From: Thermus brockianus
Lineage (GTDB): Bacteria; Deinococcota; Deinococci; Deinococcales; Thermaceae
Direction: 5' to 3'
Length of the DNA stretch: 64,000 bases
Assembly (NCBI RefSeq): GCF_001880325.1
Contig: NZ_CP016312.1
Location: 620,001 to 684,000 of the forward strand
The translations under genes and the position numbers were made by a program. The notes under the pieces are model-generated. The model was not told the origin of the DNA. It made no database searches and saw only the letters and a program-made list of their open reading frames with translations. Below are positions 14,738 through 20,569 of this stretch, piece after piece (the first letter of the stretch is position 1; every line of letters starts with the position of its first letter).

Positions 14738-16654
14738 TCAGTACACTTGCTCCCGCTGCCCATAACTGAAAACCGCCACCCCCGTCACCTGGTCCTGCCC
14801 CGTGGTGGGGAAGAAAGGTGGGGCCACCCCTTGCAGGAAGCGGCGGTCATAGGTGAAGGACCGGCCGTATCCTGTGGAGTTCTGCCCAGTTTGGCCGTTG
14901 AAAGTCCCAAAAGCCCCGTAGTACTTCTCAATGATGCCCCCAATCAGGTAAACGCTACCCTTTTCCGGGATGTTGTTGTAGTTCTCCACCGTCACCACGC
15001 CGCCAGCACTCATCAGGGAGCCGTGGATGTGCAAATCCCTGGGCGCATTTTCGTCTATGACCACATCGCCATCTTGGCTGTAGACACCCAACACATTCCT
15101 GACGTTGAGGTTATCGCAGGTGGCTGGGGTTACCGTACCATCCGGGTTCCGGGTGGGCACCCCGGAACACGGGGGCGTTTCGTATTTAAGATCCCCGGTG
15201 ATCTGGATGGTGTCCGTGGCCGCCACGGTGATCTGGGCAAACTCGGCAAGGGCAGGGCCTGCGGTATTGGGATCGTTGGCGTTGGTTCGCGGGGGTCCTT
15301 GGAGCCCTCGGATTTCCCTATCGCTAAAGATAACCCCGTTGAAGTAAACGTCGCTTCCGTTGCGCTGCACGGCCTGCCACGAGGTGGTGGTGCCCTGGGT
15401 AACCTCCTGGTAAAGCTTCCGGTCCTCCCCGTAGCGGTACTTCTCCGTCTTGGTCTGGCTGCAGTTGTTGTTTTGGCAGTAGGTTACGGTAATGTACTGG
15501 TACTTGGTCACCCCCACGGGGAGGGAAAGGCTGCAGGGCACCTCGAGGCCCGTGGTCTCATTCACACACACCCGCCTAAGCTCCAAGCGGGTAACGGTGC
15601 GTTGGAAGTACAGGCCTGCGCTTTGCGCTGCACTCCTTTGATCTTGGTTGTTCTGGGGCAGAGGGATAAAGGAAGCGTTCCAGTCCACCCCCGCGGCGAA
15701 CTGGGGAGCATGGGTACCATATGTGTTCCTGTAGGAAGGAGCGTTAGCCGAAGGTTGCATGTTGCTGGCGAGCACAAGGTTGCCTCCGTTAACGCCATAG
15801 AAATAAGCCCCGGGCCTGGTTTGACCACTACAGCTGGTATTCCCCAGTCTCGTACACCCTGCGCTCGTCACCTCCCCCCCAAACCAAGGTTGCCGGTAAA
15901 AACGGAAATGGCTATTGGTGTGCACAGGCCCGTCAAAGAGGGTTCGGTCCGTAAACCAAACATCCGTCCCATTGGGAAGGGTATGGATATGGGTAAAGAG
16001 CGCCCACCTGGAAAAGCTGGCCCGCCCCACCACAAAGCGGTACTCTCCCTGAAGGACAATGTTGCGGCGGTAAGGCCCAAAACCTGCCTCAGCCACCATG
16101 ACGAAGGGAAGGGCATACGTCTGGGAGGCCCCGCTTGTGGCCGTCCGCGGGGCTCCTTCTACAAAACGGCCGTTGGGAAGGCGTGTGTTGGGCGGAAGGT
16201 TTTGCCCACACGCCGTTGCGGTGAAATGAACCCTAAGTGTCACCGTGGCGTTTAGGCCGGAAGGGGAAAGGTTCCGCAGCGTCCCCCCTGGGCAGAGGTA
16301 GCTATCCACTTGGGCTTGAAGCTGCGAAGCCACCCCCGCCAGTGCCTGGGCTACAGCCACGGGATCGGGCTGGGAGCCCGTTTGACAGTTGCTACTTCCC
16401 CCATAGGCCCAACAGTCCGTGGTGCTGGCGGTACCCCGCACAATGGCACTCAGGCGGTCCCGAGCCGTGGTGCTCAAGAACGTGCCCCCCGTGTTCGCCG
16501 CACCGCGGGCCAACATCAGGGTCTGGACGATGGCTTGGTCCTGACCACTATGGCGGATCTCGCCCAAGGTGCGCAGGAAAAGCAGGGTTCCTATGCCTGA
16601 AACCACGAGAACCGTGGCCAGAGCGATGACCAAAGCAATGCCCCTTTGCTGCAT
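14738..16654 (-). CDS. comZ: ComZ-like large minor pilin (PilX/GspK position), DNA uptake
   Basis: The start at 16654 is chosen because GGGGGAGGGAGT lies just upstream and the product then begins MQQRGIALVIALATVLVV, a type IV prepilin leader cut after Gly5. The mature protein lacks Glu at position +5, as expected of tip-located GspK/PilX-type minor pilins. The 638 residues are far longer than normal pilins and include a large beta-rich region with many Asn/Gly/Ser residues and Cys pairs (~200-560). In Thermus thermophilus, ComZ is required for natural transformation and has been reported to bind DNA at the pilus tip. It is the last gene of the pilA1-pilA2-pilA3-comZ operon. Confidence 0.88.
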   Translation of the reverse strand: MQQRGIALVIALATVLVVSGIGTLLFLRTLGEIRHSGQDQAIVQTLMLARGAANTGGTFLSTTARDRLSAIVRGTASTTDCWAYGGSSNCQTGSQPDPVAVAQALAGVASQLQAQVDSYLCPGGTLRNLSPSGLNATVTLRVHFTATACGQNLPPNTRLPNGRFVEGAPRTATSGASQTYALPFVMVAEAGFGPYRRNIVLQGEYRFVVGRASFSRWALFTHIHTLPNGTDVWFTDRTLFDGPVHTNSHFRFYRQPWFGGEVTSAGCTRLGNTSCSGQTRPGAYFYGVNGGNLVLASNMQPSANAPSYRNTYGTHAPQFAAGVDWNASFIPLPQNNQDQRSAAQSAGLYFQRTVTRLELRRVCVNETTGLEVPCSLSLPVGVTKYQYITVTYCQNNNCSQTKTEKYRYGEDRKLYQEVTQGTTTSWQAVQRNGSDVYFNGVIFSDREIRGLQGPPRTNANDPNTAGPALAEFAQITVAATDTIQITGDLKYETPPCSGVPTRNPDGTVTPATCDNLNVRNVLGVYSQDGDVVIDENAPRDLHIHGSLMSAGGVVTVENYNNIPEKGSVYLIGGIIEKYYGAFGTFNGQTGQNSTGYGRSFTYDRRFLQGVAPPFFPTTGQDQVTGVAVFSYGQREQVY

Positions 16655-16665
16655 ACTCCCTCCCC

Positions 16666-17562
16666 CTATCGGCAAGGCACGATGCGCCGCACCTGGTACT
16701 GGGTGTTGGAGGAAAGCTCTACCTGGCTCGTGTACACCCGGTCCACAGAGCGGCCGCGGGAAAACACCTCAGCACCCAACACCAAGGACAGGCGCCTTAA
16801 GGTGTACGTTTTGTTGTTTTGCGTAACTTGGAACGGCGGTGTACCCGTAGGGTTGGCATAGCTGTAGCCTCCGGGGTTCACCAGAACATCCCCCTGTCCT
16901 GCCTCGTAAACATAGCGGATCGCAAAGCGGCTTAGGCTAAAGGCCACGGGGATCTCACCCCCGGAACCATCCCGATAGACAAGCTCCTTGGTGTTGGGGT
17001 TGTATCTAAACCCGAGGGTGCGTACCCGGAAAAGAAGCGTGTTGGGCGTATAGTCAATGGTGTTGCCGCAACCAGCATGGACTACGTGCCAACGGTTAGG
17101 CTGTCCACCCACGGCGTTCACCCGGGTGACCGGAAGGATAACGCCATCCCCATTGGCGTTAACCATAAGGACATAGTCCCCGGCCGAGATCCCTATGTCA
17201 GAAGCCTGGCTTGCCAAAACCAGTATCTTGGCCTCGGCAGCCTGCTTGAAGCTACTGTTGCTCCCACTATCATGGGGTAGGACCGGATACCCTGCTCCCC
17301 CATCAATGAGGGCAAAGGAGATACTCCCTTCACCAGAGGGATAGGGGGTGGAGGCCAGACCGCCAAAGACTGCGCTGCGCAGGTCCTGGGTAAACACCTC
17401 AACGATCCGCCTAAGCTTGGCTTGGGCACTTGCTGCGGCGTCCACATCCGAACGAAAGCCCATGAACTGGACCATCCCGCCGTAAGCGATGGCCATCACC
17501 GTGGCCAGGATGGCCAGGGCAACGAGTAGTTCCAAAAGCGTGAAGCCTGTTCTCTTCCACAT
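16666..17562 (-). CDS. pilA3: Minor pseudopilin PilA3 (PilW/GspJ-like)
   Basis: The prepilin leader is MWKRTG with cleavage before FTLLELLVALAILATV; Glu5 is present in the mature protein. The 298-residue length fits a PilW/GspJ-type minor pilin. It probably forms part of the priming complex at the pilus tip with PilA1, PilA2 and ComZ, processed by the prepilin peptidase and assembled in the inner membrane. It starts 12 bases after pilA2 and ends 11 bases before comZ. The name follows order and type in the T. thermophilus cluster. Confidence 0.86.
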   Translation of the reverse strand: MWKRTGFTLLELLVALAILATVMAIAYGGMVQFMGFRSDVDAAASAQAKLRRIVEVFTQDLRSAVFGGLASTPYPSGEGSISFALIDGGAGYPVLPHDSGSNSSFKQAAEAKILVLASQASDIGISAGDYVLMVNANGDGVILPVTRVNAVGGQPNRWHVVHAGCGNTIDYTPNTLLFRVRTLGFRYNPNTKELVYRDGSGGEIPVAFSLSRFAIRYVYEAGQGDVLVNPGGYSYANPTGTPPFQVTQNNKTYTLRRLSLVLGAEVFSRGRSVDRVYTSQVELSSNTQYQVRRIVPCR

Positions 17563-17574
17563 GGCTTCCTCCCG

Positions 17575-18054
17575 TCAGTTGATGCCCTCCAAAGGAGGGG
17601 GCGCGGAACCGGAGCCCGAAGGTGGCGCGGAGAAGGTGCGGGCTTCCGTGCAGTGTTCCTGTCCGGCCTGGCGCCAACACACCTGGATACGGTACTCGTT
17701 CACGCTTACCCCGAGGTTGTTCGCCCAACTGGGGCTTCCCGCATTGCGGATCTCCGCTCGGTAGAGGTCTGGGTTGGCGAAACGGGCTTCCTGGGGAAGG
17801 TCGGGGAAGTTTTGTCGAAGCTCCCCATACCCGTACACGATAGACGTGGAACCAGAGAGGAGGAAGGAATCCCCTCCCACAATCCTCCGGCCCAGATAGT
17901 TGAGGATTTGCACCGCCTGGGTACGGGCACCGGAAACGGAGGTTTGCCTCAGGCTAGATACCAGGACGGCGTTAAAGGCCAACAAGACCAAGGCCAAGAT
18001 GGAAAGAGCGATAAGCACTTCCAACAAGGTGAGTCCCTGAGCGCTTCTTCTCAT
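17575..18054 (-). CDS. pilA2: Minor pseudopilin PilA2 (PilV/GspI-like)
   Basis: The N-terminus MRRSAQG-LTLLEVLIALSILALVLLAF is a class III (prepilin) signal, cleaved after Gly7, with Glu5 present. At 159 residues it is the size of a GspI/PilV pseudopilin. Two cysteines near the C-terminal third (VCWRQAGQEHC) may form a short disulfide loop. The ATG overlaps the pilA1 stop (ATGA-type, 4 bases), so the genes are translationally coupled. Confidence 0.86.
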   Translation of the reverse strand: MRRSAQGLTLLEVLIALSILALVLLAFNAVLVSSLRQTSVSGARTQAVQILNYLGRRIVGGDSFLLSGSTSIVYGYGELRQNFPDLPQEARFANPDLYRAEIRNAGSPSWANNLGVSVNEYRIQVCWRQAGQEHCTEARTFSAPPSGSGSAPPPLEGIN

Positions 18055-18488
18055 GGCACCCTCTTCGCCTCCCCGATAAGAGAGATGGTGTACGTATACG
18101 TCTTCCCGTTGACCGTGGCGGTAAACGTGAGGGGTTGGGTAAGGGGTTGCCCTTGGGGATCCTGCACCTTACCCGGGGGGGTGAACCGGACGATGGACCC
18201 ATTCCCCAGGGACAGGACTACCCCCTGAGGTATGTCCCAAGTGCGCAACACCGTAGAACCCTGCTTCAACTCCAATCGGCTCCCGTTGCGCTCTAGGGTA
18301 AGGTTCACCCCTCGGCTTGCTGCCTCAGTAGCCCCCTGCCAGAAGACGTTCTGGAGCGTGCTAAGGAAAGCTGCATGCTCCTGGCCTAAAAGGGTCCTTC
18401 GCCCATTTAAGGCTCCCATGGCCAAAACCACCGCTAAAACGGCAAGGAGCACGAGTAGCTCCACCAAACTGAGTCCTCTAGCGCGCAC
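18051..18488 (-). CDS. pilA1: Minor pseudopilin PilA1 (GspH/FimT-like)
   Basis: The product starts at a GTG preceded by GGAGGGAGGTAGGG and reads MRARG-LSLVELLVLLAVLAVVLAM; the prepilin cleavage site and Glu5 are present. The 145-residue length and the beta-rich C-terminal part (LTFTATVNGKTYTYTISL) fit the GspH/FimT group. It is the first gene of the minor-pilin operon. No obvious promoter with consensus spacing was found in the ~90 bases between it and the tRNA terminator. Confidence 0.86.
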   Translation of the reverse strand: MRARGLSLVELLVLLAVLAVVLAMGALNGRRTLLGQEHAAFLSTLQNVFWQGATEAASRGVNLTLERNGSRLELKQGSTVLRTWDIPQGVVLSLGNGSIVRFTPPGKVQDPQGQPLTQPLTFTATVNGKTYTYTISLIGEAKRVP

Positions 18489-18554: not shown

Positions 18555-18576
18555 AAAAAGGCGGCCAAAGGCCGCC
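18555..18576 (-). terminator. Intrinsic terminator of tRNA-Ser
   Basis: On the minus strand GGCGGCC-TTT-GGCCGCC is followed by TTTTT. It begins only two bases after the encoded CCA end of the tRNA, so tRNA 3' trimming and termination are closely linked. Confidence 0.85.
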
Positions 18577-18578
18577 TT

Positions 18579-18670
18579 TGGCGGAGGGGGCGGGATTCGA
18601 ACCCGCGAGGCCCCTTGGGGGGCCTACCGGTTTTCGAGACCGGCCCGTTCAACCGCTCCGGCACCCCTCC
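18579..18670 (-). tRNA. tRNA-Ser (anticodon CGA), CCA encoded
   Basis: The minus strand folds as a class II tRNA. The acceptor pairs GGAGGGG with CCCCTCC, the discriminator base is G, and CCA is encoded at 18579-18581. The anticodon stem is CCGGT/ACCGG with loop CTCGAAA, giving CGA (reads UCG). A long variable arm (GGCCCC...GGGGCC) identifies serine, and the T arm contains GGTTCGAAT. The 5' 22 bases are shared with the end of the tilS-tadA coding sequence on the same strand. Confidence 0.96.
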
Positions 18671-20184
18671 CTGAGCCGGGCGAAGAAATCCCTTAAGAGC
18701 TTAGCACATTCCCCTTCCCGCACACCACCCAAGACCTTCCCCCGAAGGCCAAACCGGGTGAGGGCCCCCTCCTTCAGGTTCTCCGCCCCGTAGACCACCT
18801 CCACCCCCGCCTGGTTGAGGGCATGCTGGCACATAAGGCAGGGCTCGAGGGTCACGTACATCCGCCCCCCCCGGGCCTCCTTGCCCGCTTGCCGGAGGAG
18901 GAGCATCTCGGCGTGGGCCGTGGGGTCCCCCTCCGCCTCCACCCGGTTGTGGGCCCGGTAAAGCCTCTCCCCCACCACCAGGACCGCCCCTACAGGCACC
19001 TCCCCCTGGGCCAGGGCCTCCTTGGCCTCCGCCAGGGCCAGGCCCATTTGGCGCTCCTCCTCCCCCAGGGGGTAGAGGCCCAGGACCTCCACCACCCGCT
19101 TCCCCTCCGCCCGCACGGGCCAAAGGCCCTTGAGCTCCTTGGGCACCCCCTTTTCCGCCAGGAAGTCCCGTAGGCGCTTCCTCCCGTAGGGCATCTCCAG
19201 GTAGTCCCCGGGCTCGGGGGGGCGGAAGCCCGGGGGCAGGGGAAGCTTGGGCGAAGGGGGGATGAGGAAAAGCGTCCCCCCTTTGCGGCGGGCGAGGAAG
19301 CCCTCCGGCAGGGTGGCGGGCTTACCCGTCAAGGCCCCTTCCAAGAGGGCGATGAGCCGGGCCTCCGGGCGGAGGGAGAGGCCTTCTAGCACCTGGCGGA
19401 GCACCCGGCGGCGCAGGGCAGGGGGAGCGTGGAGCAGGGGGGCTACCCGGTAGGCGGGGACGAAAAAGCGGGGGTCGGGGAGGAGACGGGCTTTGGCCTC
19501 CTTTTCCAGCGTGGCGTCCTCCGCCTCCTGGGCCCGGGCGAAGCGGTCCAGGGCCTCCCGGGCCCGGGGAAAGCGCTCCAGAAGAAGGGGGAAAACCCTA
19601 AGGCGCAGGTAGTTCCGGTCCCAGCTGGGGTCTTGGTTGGTGGGGTCCTCCCGCCAGACCTCCCCCAAGGACCTCAGGTAGTCCCGGAGGGCCTCCCGGG
19701 GGAAGGGAAGGAGGGGCCGCACCACCAGGCCCTCCTTTTCCCGGATGCCAAGCCCCCGGGCCGTGCCCTGGAGGAGCTTGAGGAGGACGGTCTCCGCCTG
19801 GTCGTCCAGGGTGTGGGCGGTGAGGATGGCCTTGGCCCCCACCTTCTTGGCCACCCGGTGGAGGAAGGTGTAGCGCACCTCCCGGGCCAAAGCCTCCAGG
19901 TTCTCCCCCCGCTCCTGAGCGATCCTTCCCACCTCCACCCGCTCGGCGAAGAAGGGAAAGCCAAGCCTTTCCGCTAGGGCGTGGACGAAGGCCAGGTCCT
20001 CGGCGCTATCAGGCCTCAAGGCGTGGTCCAGGTGGGCCACCACCCCCTTCCGCCCCAGGCGGTGGACCAGGTGGGCGAGGGCCACGGAGTCCCCGCCCCC
20101 AGAGACCGCCAGGACCAAGGGGTCTTCCGGGGCCAGGGCCTTTAGGCGTTCAAGGAAGAGGGCCTCGAGGGGAAGGAGCCACAA
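18649..20184 (-). CDS. tilS: Fused tRNA(Ile)-lysidine synthase / tRNA-adenosine deaminase (TilS-TadA)
   Basis: Residues ~1-370 are TilS: the PP-loop SGGGDSVALAH (~28-38), the following HLDHALRPDS and TAHTLDDQAETVLLKL, and a C-terminal TilS_C domain (KRLRDFLAEKGVPKELKGLW). It makes lysidine at C34 of tRNA-Ile(CAU). Residues ~375-511 are a complete TadA-type deaminase with the zinc motifs DPTAHAEMLLL and LEPCLMCQHAL, making inosine at A34 of tRNA-Arg(ACG). One polypeptide therefore carries both wobble-base modifications of position 34. The start is TTG inside the upstream gene (35-base overlap). The stop lies inside the tRNA-Ser gene. Confidence 0.94.
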   Translation of the reverse strand: MWLLPLEALFLERLKALAPEDPLVLAVSGGGDSVALAHLVHRLGRKGVVAHLDHALRPDSAEDLAFVHALAERLGFPFFAERVEVGRIAQERGENLEALAREVRYTFLHRVAKKVGAKAILTAHTLDDQAETVLLKLLQGTARGLGIREKEGLVVRPLLPFPREALRDYLRSLGEVWREDPTNQDPSWDRNYLRLRVFPLLLERFPRAREALDRFARAQEAEDATLEKEAKARLLPDPRFFVPAYRVAPLLHAPPALRRRVLRQVLEGLSLRPEARLIALLEGALTGKPATLPEGFLARRKGGTLFLIPPSPKLPLPPGFRPPEPGDYLEMPYGRKRLRDFLAEKGVPKELKGLWPVRAEGKRVVEVLGLYPLGEEERQMGLALAEAKEALAQGEVPVGAVLVVGERLYRAHNRVEAEGDPTAHAEMLLLRQAGKEARGGRMYVTLEPCLMCQHALNQAGVEVVYGAENLKEGALTRFGLRGKVLGGVREGECAKLLRDFFARLREGCRSG

Positions 20185-20569
20185 GCCTCGCCACCTCCGC
20201 CTTTAACGCAGGTAGGCAGCACCTGCCCCGGGGGTTGCGCAGGTCGCAGGCGCACCGCTTGGCCCGCACCCCCGCTTCCACCTCCGCCACCGGGTCCCGC
20301 CCGGCCAGGAGGGCTTCCCGGATGGCCTCCCGGGTCCAGTCAAAGCAGTAGCACACCAGGGAAGCCCCCTTCTCGTACACGGGAAAGCGCACCTCCTCCC
20401 GGGTGTACACCCCGTCCGCCCCGAAGTAGACCACCGGGCAGGCCGGGTCCTGGCAGAGGTAGTGCCCCACGCCCGGGTCCAGACGGGCCAAAGCCCTTCC
20501 CGTGAGGAAGTTCTTCACCGCCCTAAGGGGCACGGGAAGCCCCTCTTGAGCGTTTTGCGGGCAGCGCAT
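20150..20569 (-). CDS. CopZ-like metallochaperone / putative [2Fe-2S] protein (139 aa)
   Basis: The protein is cysteine-rich: CQDPACPVVYF (~40-50), LVCYCFDWT (~72-80) and KRCACDLRNPRGRCCLP (~108-124). This layout matches the N-terminal domain of the archaeal-type CopZ/BFD-like proteins, in which one group of cysteines binds zinc and another a [2Fe-2S] cluster. There is no separate C-terminal CxxC copper (HMA) domain here, so copper delivery is uncertain. It is upstream of and overlaps tilS-tadA, and is divergent from the CDGSH gene. A TATAGT box six bases before the ATG suggests a leaderless transcript. Confidence 0.78.
   Translation of the reverse strand: MRCPQNAQEGLPVPLRAVKNFLTGRALARLDPGVGHYLCQDPACPVVYFGADGVYTREEVRFPVYEKGASLVCYCFDWTREAIREALLAGRDPVAEVEAGVRAKRCACDLRNPRGRCCLPALKAEVARLVAPSPRGPLP

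Follow-up and report, generated by a model that had tools for sequence, protein, structure and literature searches.

The tilS-tadA fusion gene of Thermus ends inside a tRNA-Ser(CGA) gene and appears to harbor a promoter for this tRNA

The gene tilS-tadA, which codes for a fusion of tRNA-Ile lysidine synthetase and tRNA adenosine-34 deaminase, ends inside the gene for tRNA-Ser(CGA) that follows on the same strand. The two genes share 22 of the 92 nt of the tRNA. Based on sequence comparison, we consider it quite likely that one stretch of DNA serves three functions: it would code for the C-terminal helix of TadA, act as a sigma-A promoter, and specify tRNA-Ser(CGA), with tilS-tadA using a TGA in the D arm as its stop codon. 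The tRNA would be produced mainly from the embedded promoter. The features of this locus in the window (the whole 64-kb stretch of DNA that was analysed) are compiled in Table 1, together with a second case, lnt, from elsewhere in the genome.

Table 1. Features of the tilS-tadA/tRNA-Ser(CGA) locus (positions in the window) and the lnt gene
Feature	Position	Strand	Description or basis
Intrinsic terminator	18555..18576	-	GGCGGCC-TTT-GGCCGCC-TTTTT; common to the tilS-tadA mRNA and the tRNA transcript
tRNA-Ser(CGA) gene	18579..18670	-	CCA encoded at 18581-18579; Rfam, ARAGORN
Overlap of tilS-tadA and tRNA-Ser(CGA)	18649..18670	-	tRNA nt 1-22; sequence, orthologue comparison
tilS-tadA fusion CDS	18649..20184	-	ORF of 511 aa
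Predicted start region of the tRNA transcript	18689..18692	-	about 7 nt after the -10; derived from the -10 position
Predicted extended -10	18698..18706	-	TGC TAAGCT in TadA codons TGT GCT AAG CTC; conservation, codon constraint
Weak -35-like hexamer	18722..18727	-	TGGTGT, spaced 18 nt from the -10; overlaps partly with a GGT codon that is conserved and uncommon
lnt (apolipoprotein N-acyltransferase)	L137:734-1993; G000:C1 about 1702133-1703392	-	TIGR00546, 204.6 bits

The TilS N-terminal domain (TIGR02432, 158.6 bits, cut-off 93.6) and the deaminase domain (PF00383, 77.6 bits, cut-off 25) are encoded together in a single ORF, which thus codes for a fusion protein; the TadA equivalog model NF008113 scored below its cut-off (83 vs. 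150). The start codon, TTG, is uncertain, and alignments of orthologues begin at residues 2-9. The annotated 5' end of tilS shares 35 nt with a gene for a CopZ-like zinc/2Fe-2S binding protein (20150-20569), which suggests either that the operon is closely packed or that tilS starts later than annotated. On the other side of the tRNA (14738-18488) is a run of minus-strand genes with pilin-like N-terminal methylation motifs. This motif was matched by Pfam in a 159-aa ORF (17575-18054), and the N-termini of the neighbours look similar. These genes are probably a type IV pilus minor pilin cluster.

Rfam matched the tRNA at 18670-18582 (56.6 bits), and ARAGORN called it at 18671-18579 with anticodon CGA. 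Judged from the 7-bp acceptor stem, the 5' end called by ARAGORN is one base too long. The 3' end of tilS-tadA reads CTC AGG GAG GGG TGC CGG AGC GGT TGA (protein end ...LREGCRSG*). The shared part consists of the last base of AGG, the six codons GAG GGG TGC CGG AGC GGT, and the stop codon (18651-18649, minus strand), which corresponds to nt 20-22 of the tRNA. A reading made from the sequence alone had proposed that the last seven residues and the stop are encoded by the first 22 bases of the tRNA. The coordinates of the ORF and of the Rfam match confirm this overlap (18670-18649); six residues and the stop lie wholly inside, and the seventh codon, AGG, contributes only its last base. With its stop inside a downstream tRNA on the same strand, tilS-tadA forms an overlap of the selB/selC type.

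The sequence-only reading had proposed a comparison with other Thermus genomes, and the overlap proved to be present there too. The fusion gene was found in 26 of 27 genomes, with a short fragment in the incomplete genome G020, and in each of the 26, tRNA-Ser(CGA) directly adjoins tadA or overlaps it. Every intact tilS-tadA gene (25 of 25 species) ends inside the tRNA, and 24 of these 25 terminate with EGCRSG* at nt 20-22. The remaining one, at locus L025, enters in a different reading frame and has its stop deeper in the tRNA (nt 45-47). Genome G016 (87% complete) has a tilS-tadA frame that is broken upstream, with the overlap sequence intact. With 24 orthologues sharing one stop position in the tRNA and only the 25th ending elsewhere in it (nt 45-47), the overlap appears far from accidental and is not a chance open frame.

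The fusion gene itself is widespread across the order, and overlapping as well as non-overlapping loci were encountered (33 vs. 26). Beyond Thermus, three other genera of the order have the overlap as well (G071 from f1g5, G050 from f1g2, and six genomes from f4g14). The gap between tadA and the tRNA is 3-11 nt in f4g13 and f4g12, and 21-327 nt in f1g3, f1g4, G049, and G109. We refer to f1g4 as Meiothermus-like, which is a presumed identity; for these genomes and for G035, the stop positions were set using the TadA helix as anchor. When overlap and gap are placed on the TilS-TadA tree, at least three changes are required. The overlap is kept in relatives and absent in some lineages of the order. 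Because other genera lack the tail encoded by the tRNA and L025 has a different one, the enzyme can apparently do without it, and conservation of the tail would follow from that of the tRNA.

A promoter-like element was identified inside tadA, where an extended -10 of the form TGnTAnnnT is positioned 36 nt ahead of the tRNA. The corresponding 9-mer, TGCTAAGCT (18706-18698), is single-copy in the window, and the identical sequence is the -10 upstream of tRNA-Cys in the same genome. The hexamer at a spacing of 18 nt matches TTGACA at only two of six positions; TGGACG is found at -35 spacing in G050 and in f4g12-f4g14. At all overlapping loci, the motif TGCTA[AG][AG]CT is accommodated in TadA codons (TGT/AGT) GCT ARR CTN, 32-42 nt before the tRNA. 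In the form TGCTAnnnT it is found inside the coding sequence at each of the 33 overlapping loci, and also at 7 loci where 3-11 nt separate tadA from the tRNA. In 14 Meiothermus-like genomes (gaps of 38-327 nt), the motif (TGCTAAAGT or TGCTAGAGT) is carried by the spacer instead of the coding sequence, in many of them with GTGACT 17 nt upstream; TadA codons at the homologous positions are free to vary in these genomes (e.g., TCG GCC AAG CTG). A promoter read from the locus sequence of f1g3, TTGACG-17-TAAAGT, spans the stop codon. At locus L068 (G049, f1g2), tadA retains the extended -10 at a distance of 110 nt from the tRNA, and a second one is located in a spacer; the sister genome G050 has the overlap. 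This locus looks like an intermediate stage of promoter relocation.

Codon usage was examined in the amino-acid-conserved columns of the Thermus alignment, with codons considered uncommon when they account for <20% of synonymous use, and considered kept when found in ≥90% of the species. Only 3 of 372 conserved columns of tilS-tadA have a kept uncommon codon: one (GGT) falls in the -35 region, one (GCT) in the -10, and one (GGT) in the tRNA. The end of tadA is thus constrained beyond its protein sequence. A promoter score of at least 9 is reached within 90 nt by 26 of the 35 leading tRNAs of the genome, compared to 0.2-0.4% of random 90-mers. The score is 7 for tRNA-Ser(CGA), which is matched by 2.4% of random 90-mers. 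A simple scan (9-of-12 rule) returned no promoter at the locus, with a rule that excludes an extended -10 combined with a weak -35. The case for an embedded promoter is therefore built on conservation and relocation, not on score, and the relocation represents few independent events, with 2-3 independent pairs that cannot give significance. These data indicate that a dedicated tRNA-Ser(CGA) promoter is hidden inside tadA, so that the tRNA could be made independently of tilS-tadA transcripts.

All 47 tRNAs of the genome were screened for same-strand ORFs, with hits judged by eye. Besides tilS-tadA, the only recognisable gene that runs into a tRNA is lnt. In 26 of 26 Thermus genomes it ends with ...PGWRN(R/W)*, and the TAG corresponds to nt 20-22 of tRNA-Leu(CAA). 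Equally in 26 of 26, the last lnt codons contain a promoter sequence, TTGAC[CG]-17-TATCCT (TTGACC-17-TATCCT at L137). The codon test identified kept uncommon codons in 4 of 316 conserved columns: TTG (-35), CTT, CTT (-10), and CCG (tRNA). The lnt/tRNA-Leu(CAA) overlap was also detected in G071. Gaps of 12-99 nt occur in the other f1 genomes examined that have this linkage, and several f1g4 genomes have a TATAGT-like -10 at the lnt stop codon. For f4, the genomes examined had no tRNA-Leu(CAA) after lnt within the fetched stretch. Other long open frames entering tRNAs were mostly antisense or off-frame as judged by eye and were set aside. A ychF-like GTPase gene (L138:596-1762) enters tRNA-Gln(TTG) after an apparent frame change in a G run near the C-terminus (position ~1600). 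As it reaches the tRNA only through this frame shift (a sequencing error or a real mutation), it was rejected as a third overlap gene.

Scanning between the tilS-tadA ORF and tRNA-Ser(CGA) revealed no terminator, and full-length tilS-tadA mRNAs should therefore include the tRNA. RNase P cleavage would then strip the stop codon from the mRNA. The intrinsic terminator starts only 2 nt past the CCA. Its extended stem (18557-18579) includes A 18579, the final base of the CCA, and the tRNA thus seems to be functionally overlapped at both ends, by tadA on one side and by the terminator stem on the other. Genes for RNase P RNA and for tmRNA were found in the genome. RNA folding of leader plus tRNA at 37°C did not return the cloverleaf, from which nothing can be concluded for a modified tRNA at about 70°C. 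The sequence-only reading had concluded that each RNA yields either an intact mRNA end or a mature tRNA. The layout of terminators and the predicted loss of the stop agree with this for the long transcript; a coupling of tRNA output to tilS-tadA transcription is not supported, given the promoter-like element in all overlapping loci. The same reading would have been contradicted by a dedicated tRNA promoter together with tilS-tadA transcription that ends upstream. Comparative evidence points to the former, and no sign of the latter was seen.

We envisage that a short transcript, running from the embedded promoter to the terminator just behind the tRNA, would be the main source of tRNA-Ser(CGA). 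A long transcript would start upstream of tilS-tadA and continue through the tRNA to the common terminator. If ribosomes finish at the D-arm stop before the tRNA folds on this transcript, translation would terminate normally. Alternatively, RNase P may cut first (18671/18670), releasing the tRNA and a tilS-tadA mRNA devoid of a stop codon, which tmRNA would clear. This cost is presumably tolerated because little of the enzyme is required and its last residues are dispensable. Promoter activity, the start site, the order of cleavage, and any regulatory effect are what we infer; the supply of tRNA-Ser(CGA) would then be largely independent of tilS-tadA.

It is unlikely that the locus reflects neutral compaction only, with the spacer deleted, the stop moved into the D arm, no selection for a promoter in tadA, and the tRNA made by read-through. 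Stops are readily supplied by tRNAs: when read in frame from nt 2, 35 of 47 tRNAs have a stop within their first 25 nt, compared to 9 and 12 in the other frames (examples are TAG at nt 8-10 and TAG or TGA in the D-loop). An ORF that loses its spacer in this frame thus meets a stop immediately, and such overlaps can arise without regulation. Moreover, the genome is small and compact, and the frame shift of L025 would simply be tolerated. However, compaction predicts neither that kept uncommon codons are confined to promoter positions nor that the motif is relocated in Meiothermus-like genomes. Its compaction part is compatible with the three-function explanation. We regard it as highly improbable that the conserved GCT/TTA/CTA codons at the tadA end serve translation, as slow codons or through mRNA structure, rather than transcription. 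They are uncommon in the gene set examined (2-7% for TTA/CTA and GCT), but in Meiothermus-like genomes they are released just where the motif turns up in the untranslated spacer. Hardly credible is an annotation artefact, with the true TadA end upstream and a frame that is open into the tRNA by chance. A dispensable tail would fit this, but none of the 25 intact Thermus genes has an in-frame stop ahead of the tRNA, and TadA homology (C-terminal helix LL..FFARLR) reaches within a few codons of it.

RNase P has a more active role in two further explanations. It might be a post-transcriptional brake on both TilS-TadA and Lnt, generating nonstop mRNA that is passed to tmRNA, with transcriptional interference added by the embedded promoter, and this expression-limiting device would be a general one selected throughout Thermus. 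If so, enzyme output would drop when tRNA processing capacity is high. We consider this quite unlikely. Distinctly improbable, in our view, is the regulatory link drawn by the sequence-only reading, in which the shared transcript and RNase P make tilS-tadA mRNA and tRNA alternatives and thereby couple a modifying enzyme to tRNA processing. Full-length transcripts must include the tRNA, the overlap is maintained throughout Thermus, tmRNA is available for nonstop mRNA, and an equivalent proposal exists for selB/selC (PMC8124441). Yet a promoter signature is embedded in tadA, lnt/tRNA-Leu has the same architecture with no tRNA-modification link, and related genera without the overlap still keep the gene order. 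The known substrates are tRNA-Ile CAU for TilS and tRNA-Arg ACG for TadA. tRNA-Ser is not a known substrate of either and, judged from gene identities and these substrates, tRNA-Ser(CGA) is not a functional partner of TilS-TadA. This, together with the lnt case, argues against a dedicated enzyme-substrate feedback.

As precedents, selB ORFs that span tRNA-Sec or terminate within it have been described (Mukai 2021; PMC8124441) for Alphaproteobacteria, Dyella/Luteibacter, and Nitrospirae. In Dyella/Luteibacter, the selB stop is inside the tRNA at nt 46-48, and close relatives have lost the selB/selC overlap (PMC8124441). The mRNA-or-tRNA logic, with processing that would lead to nonstop mRNA and reduced protein output, has been proposed for selB/selC as a hypothesis only (PMC8124441). 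As in Thermus tilS-tadA, a protein gene runs into a downstream tRNA on the same strand, relatives lack the overlap, and a nonstop consequence is proposed. However, in selB/selC the encoded protein and the tRNA are functional partners, whereas in Thermus the tRNA is unrelated to the known substrates of the enzymes. Also, tRNA-Sec is often wholly nested in the ORF (the commonest form), whereas only 22 nt are shared in tilS-tadA. The putative promoter embedded in the upstream gene, the genus-wide occurrence, and the presence at two unrelated loci further distinguish the Thermus overlaps. They belong to the selB/selC kind.

Mitochondrial mRNA-tRNA overlaps are also known; one example cited in PMC8124441 is the tRNA-Lys within cox1 of Armadillidium. 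As far as they are described there, coding and tRNA bases are common and processing makes the products alternatives, as in Thermus; unlike the bacterial case, they occur in highly compacted mitochondrial genomes. Ordinary same-strand gene overlaps and internal promoters of bacteria resemble the Thermus loci in having a short 3' overlap and a promoter in the upstream coding sequence. The difference is that the downstream gene in Thermus specifies a structured RNA that is cut by RNase P, which would cost the mRNA its stop. We know of no separate tRNA promoter described for mitochondrial mRNA-tRNA overlaps. Open-access titles and abstracts revealed no start-site map for Thermus, no tilS-tadA/tRNA overlap, and no tRNA promoter inside a coding sequence; PMC8124441 was the sole relevant paper, and an earlier report may exist elsewhere.

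The Thermus loci represent an apparently clean natural case of DNA under protein, promoter, and structured RNA constraint, at two unrelated loci and with close relatives in which the functions are separated. They open the testable question of what becomes of an mRNA that loses its stop codon through maturation of a tRNA. On the practical side, annotation pipelines that forbid overlap between coding sequences and tRNAs may mis-trim tilS-tadA and lnt. In Thermus, a tRNA promoter may be silenced when tadA or lnt is recoded with synonymous codons or given a C-terminal tag.

A side observation concerns RNase P itself. In addition to the normal RNase P RNA (G000:C1:1929316-1929687, 272 bits), the genome has a second, diverged class A copy at L174 (G000:C1:1942013-1942360, minus strand; 114.9 bits, cut-off 100), about 13 kb away and on the opposite strand. 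Second matches above the cut-off were obtained for 6 of 27 Thermus genomes (G000, G010, G011, G022, G023, and G024). The diverged copy is possibly a duplicated or decaying gene.
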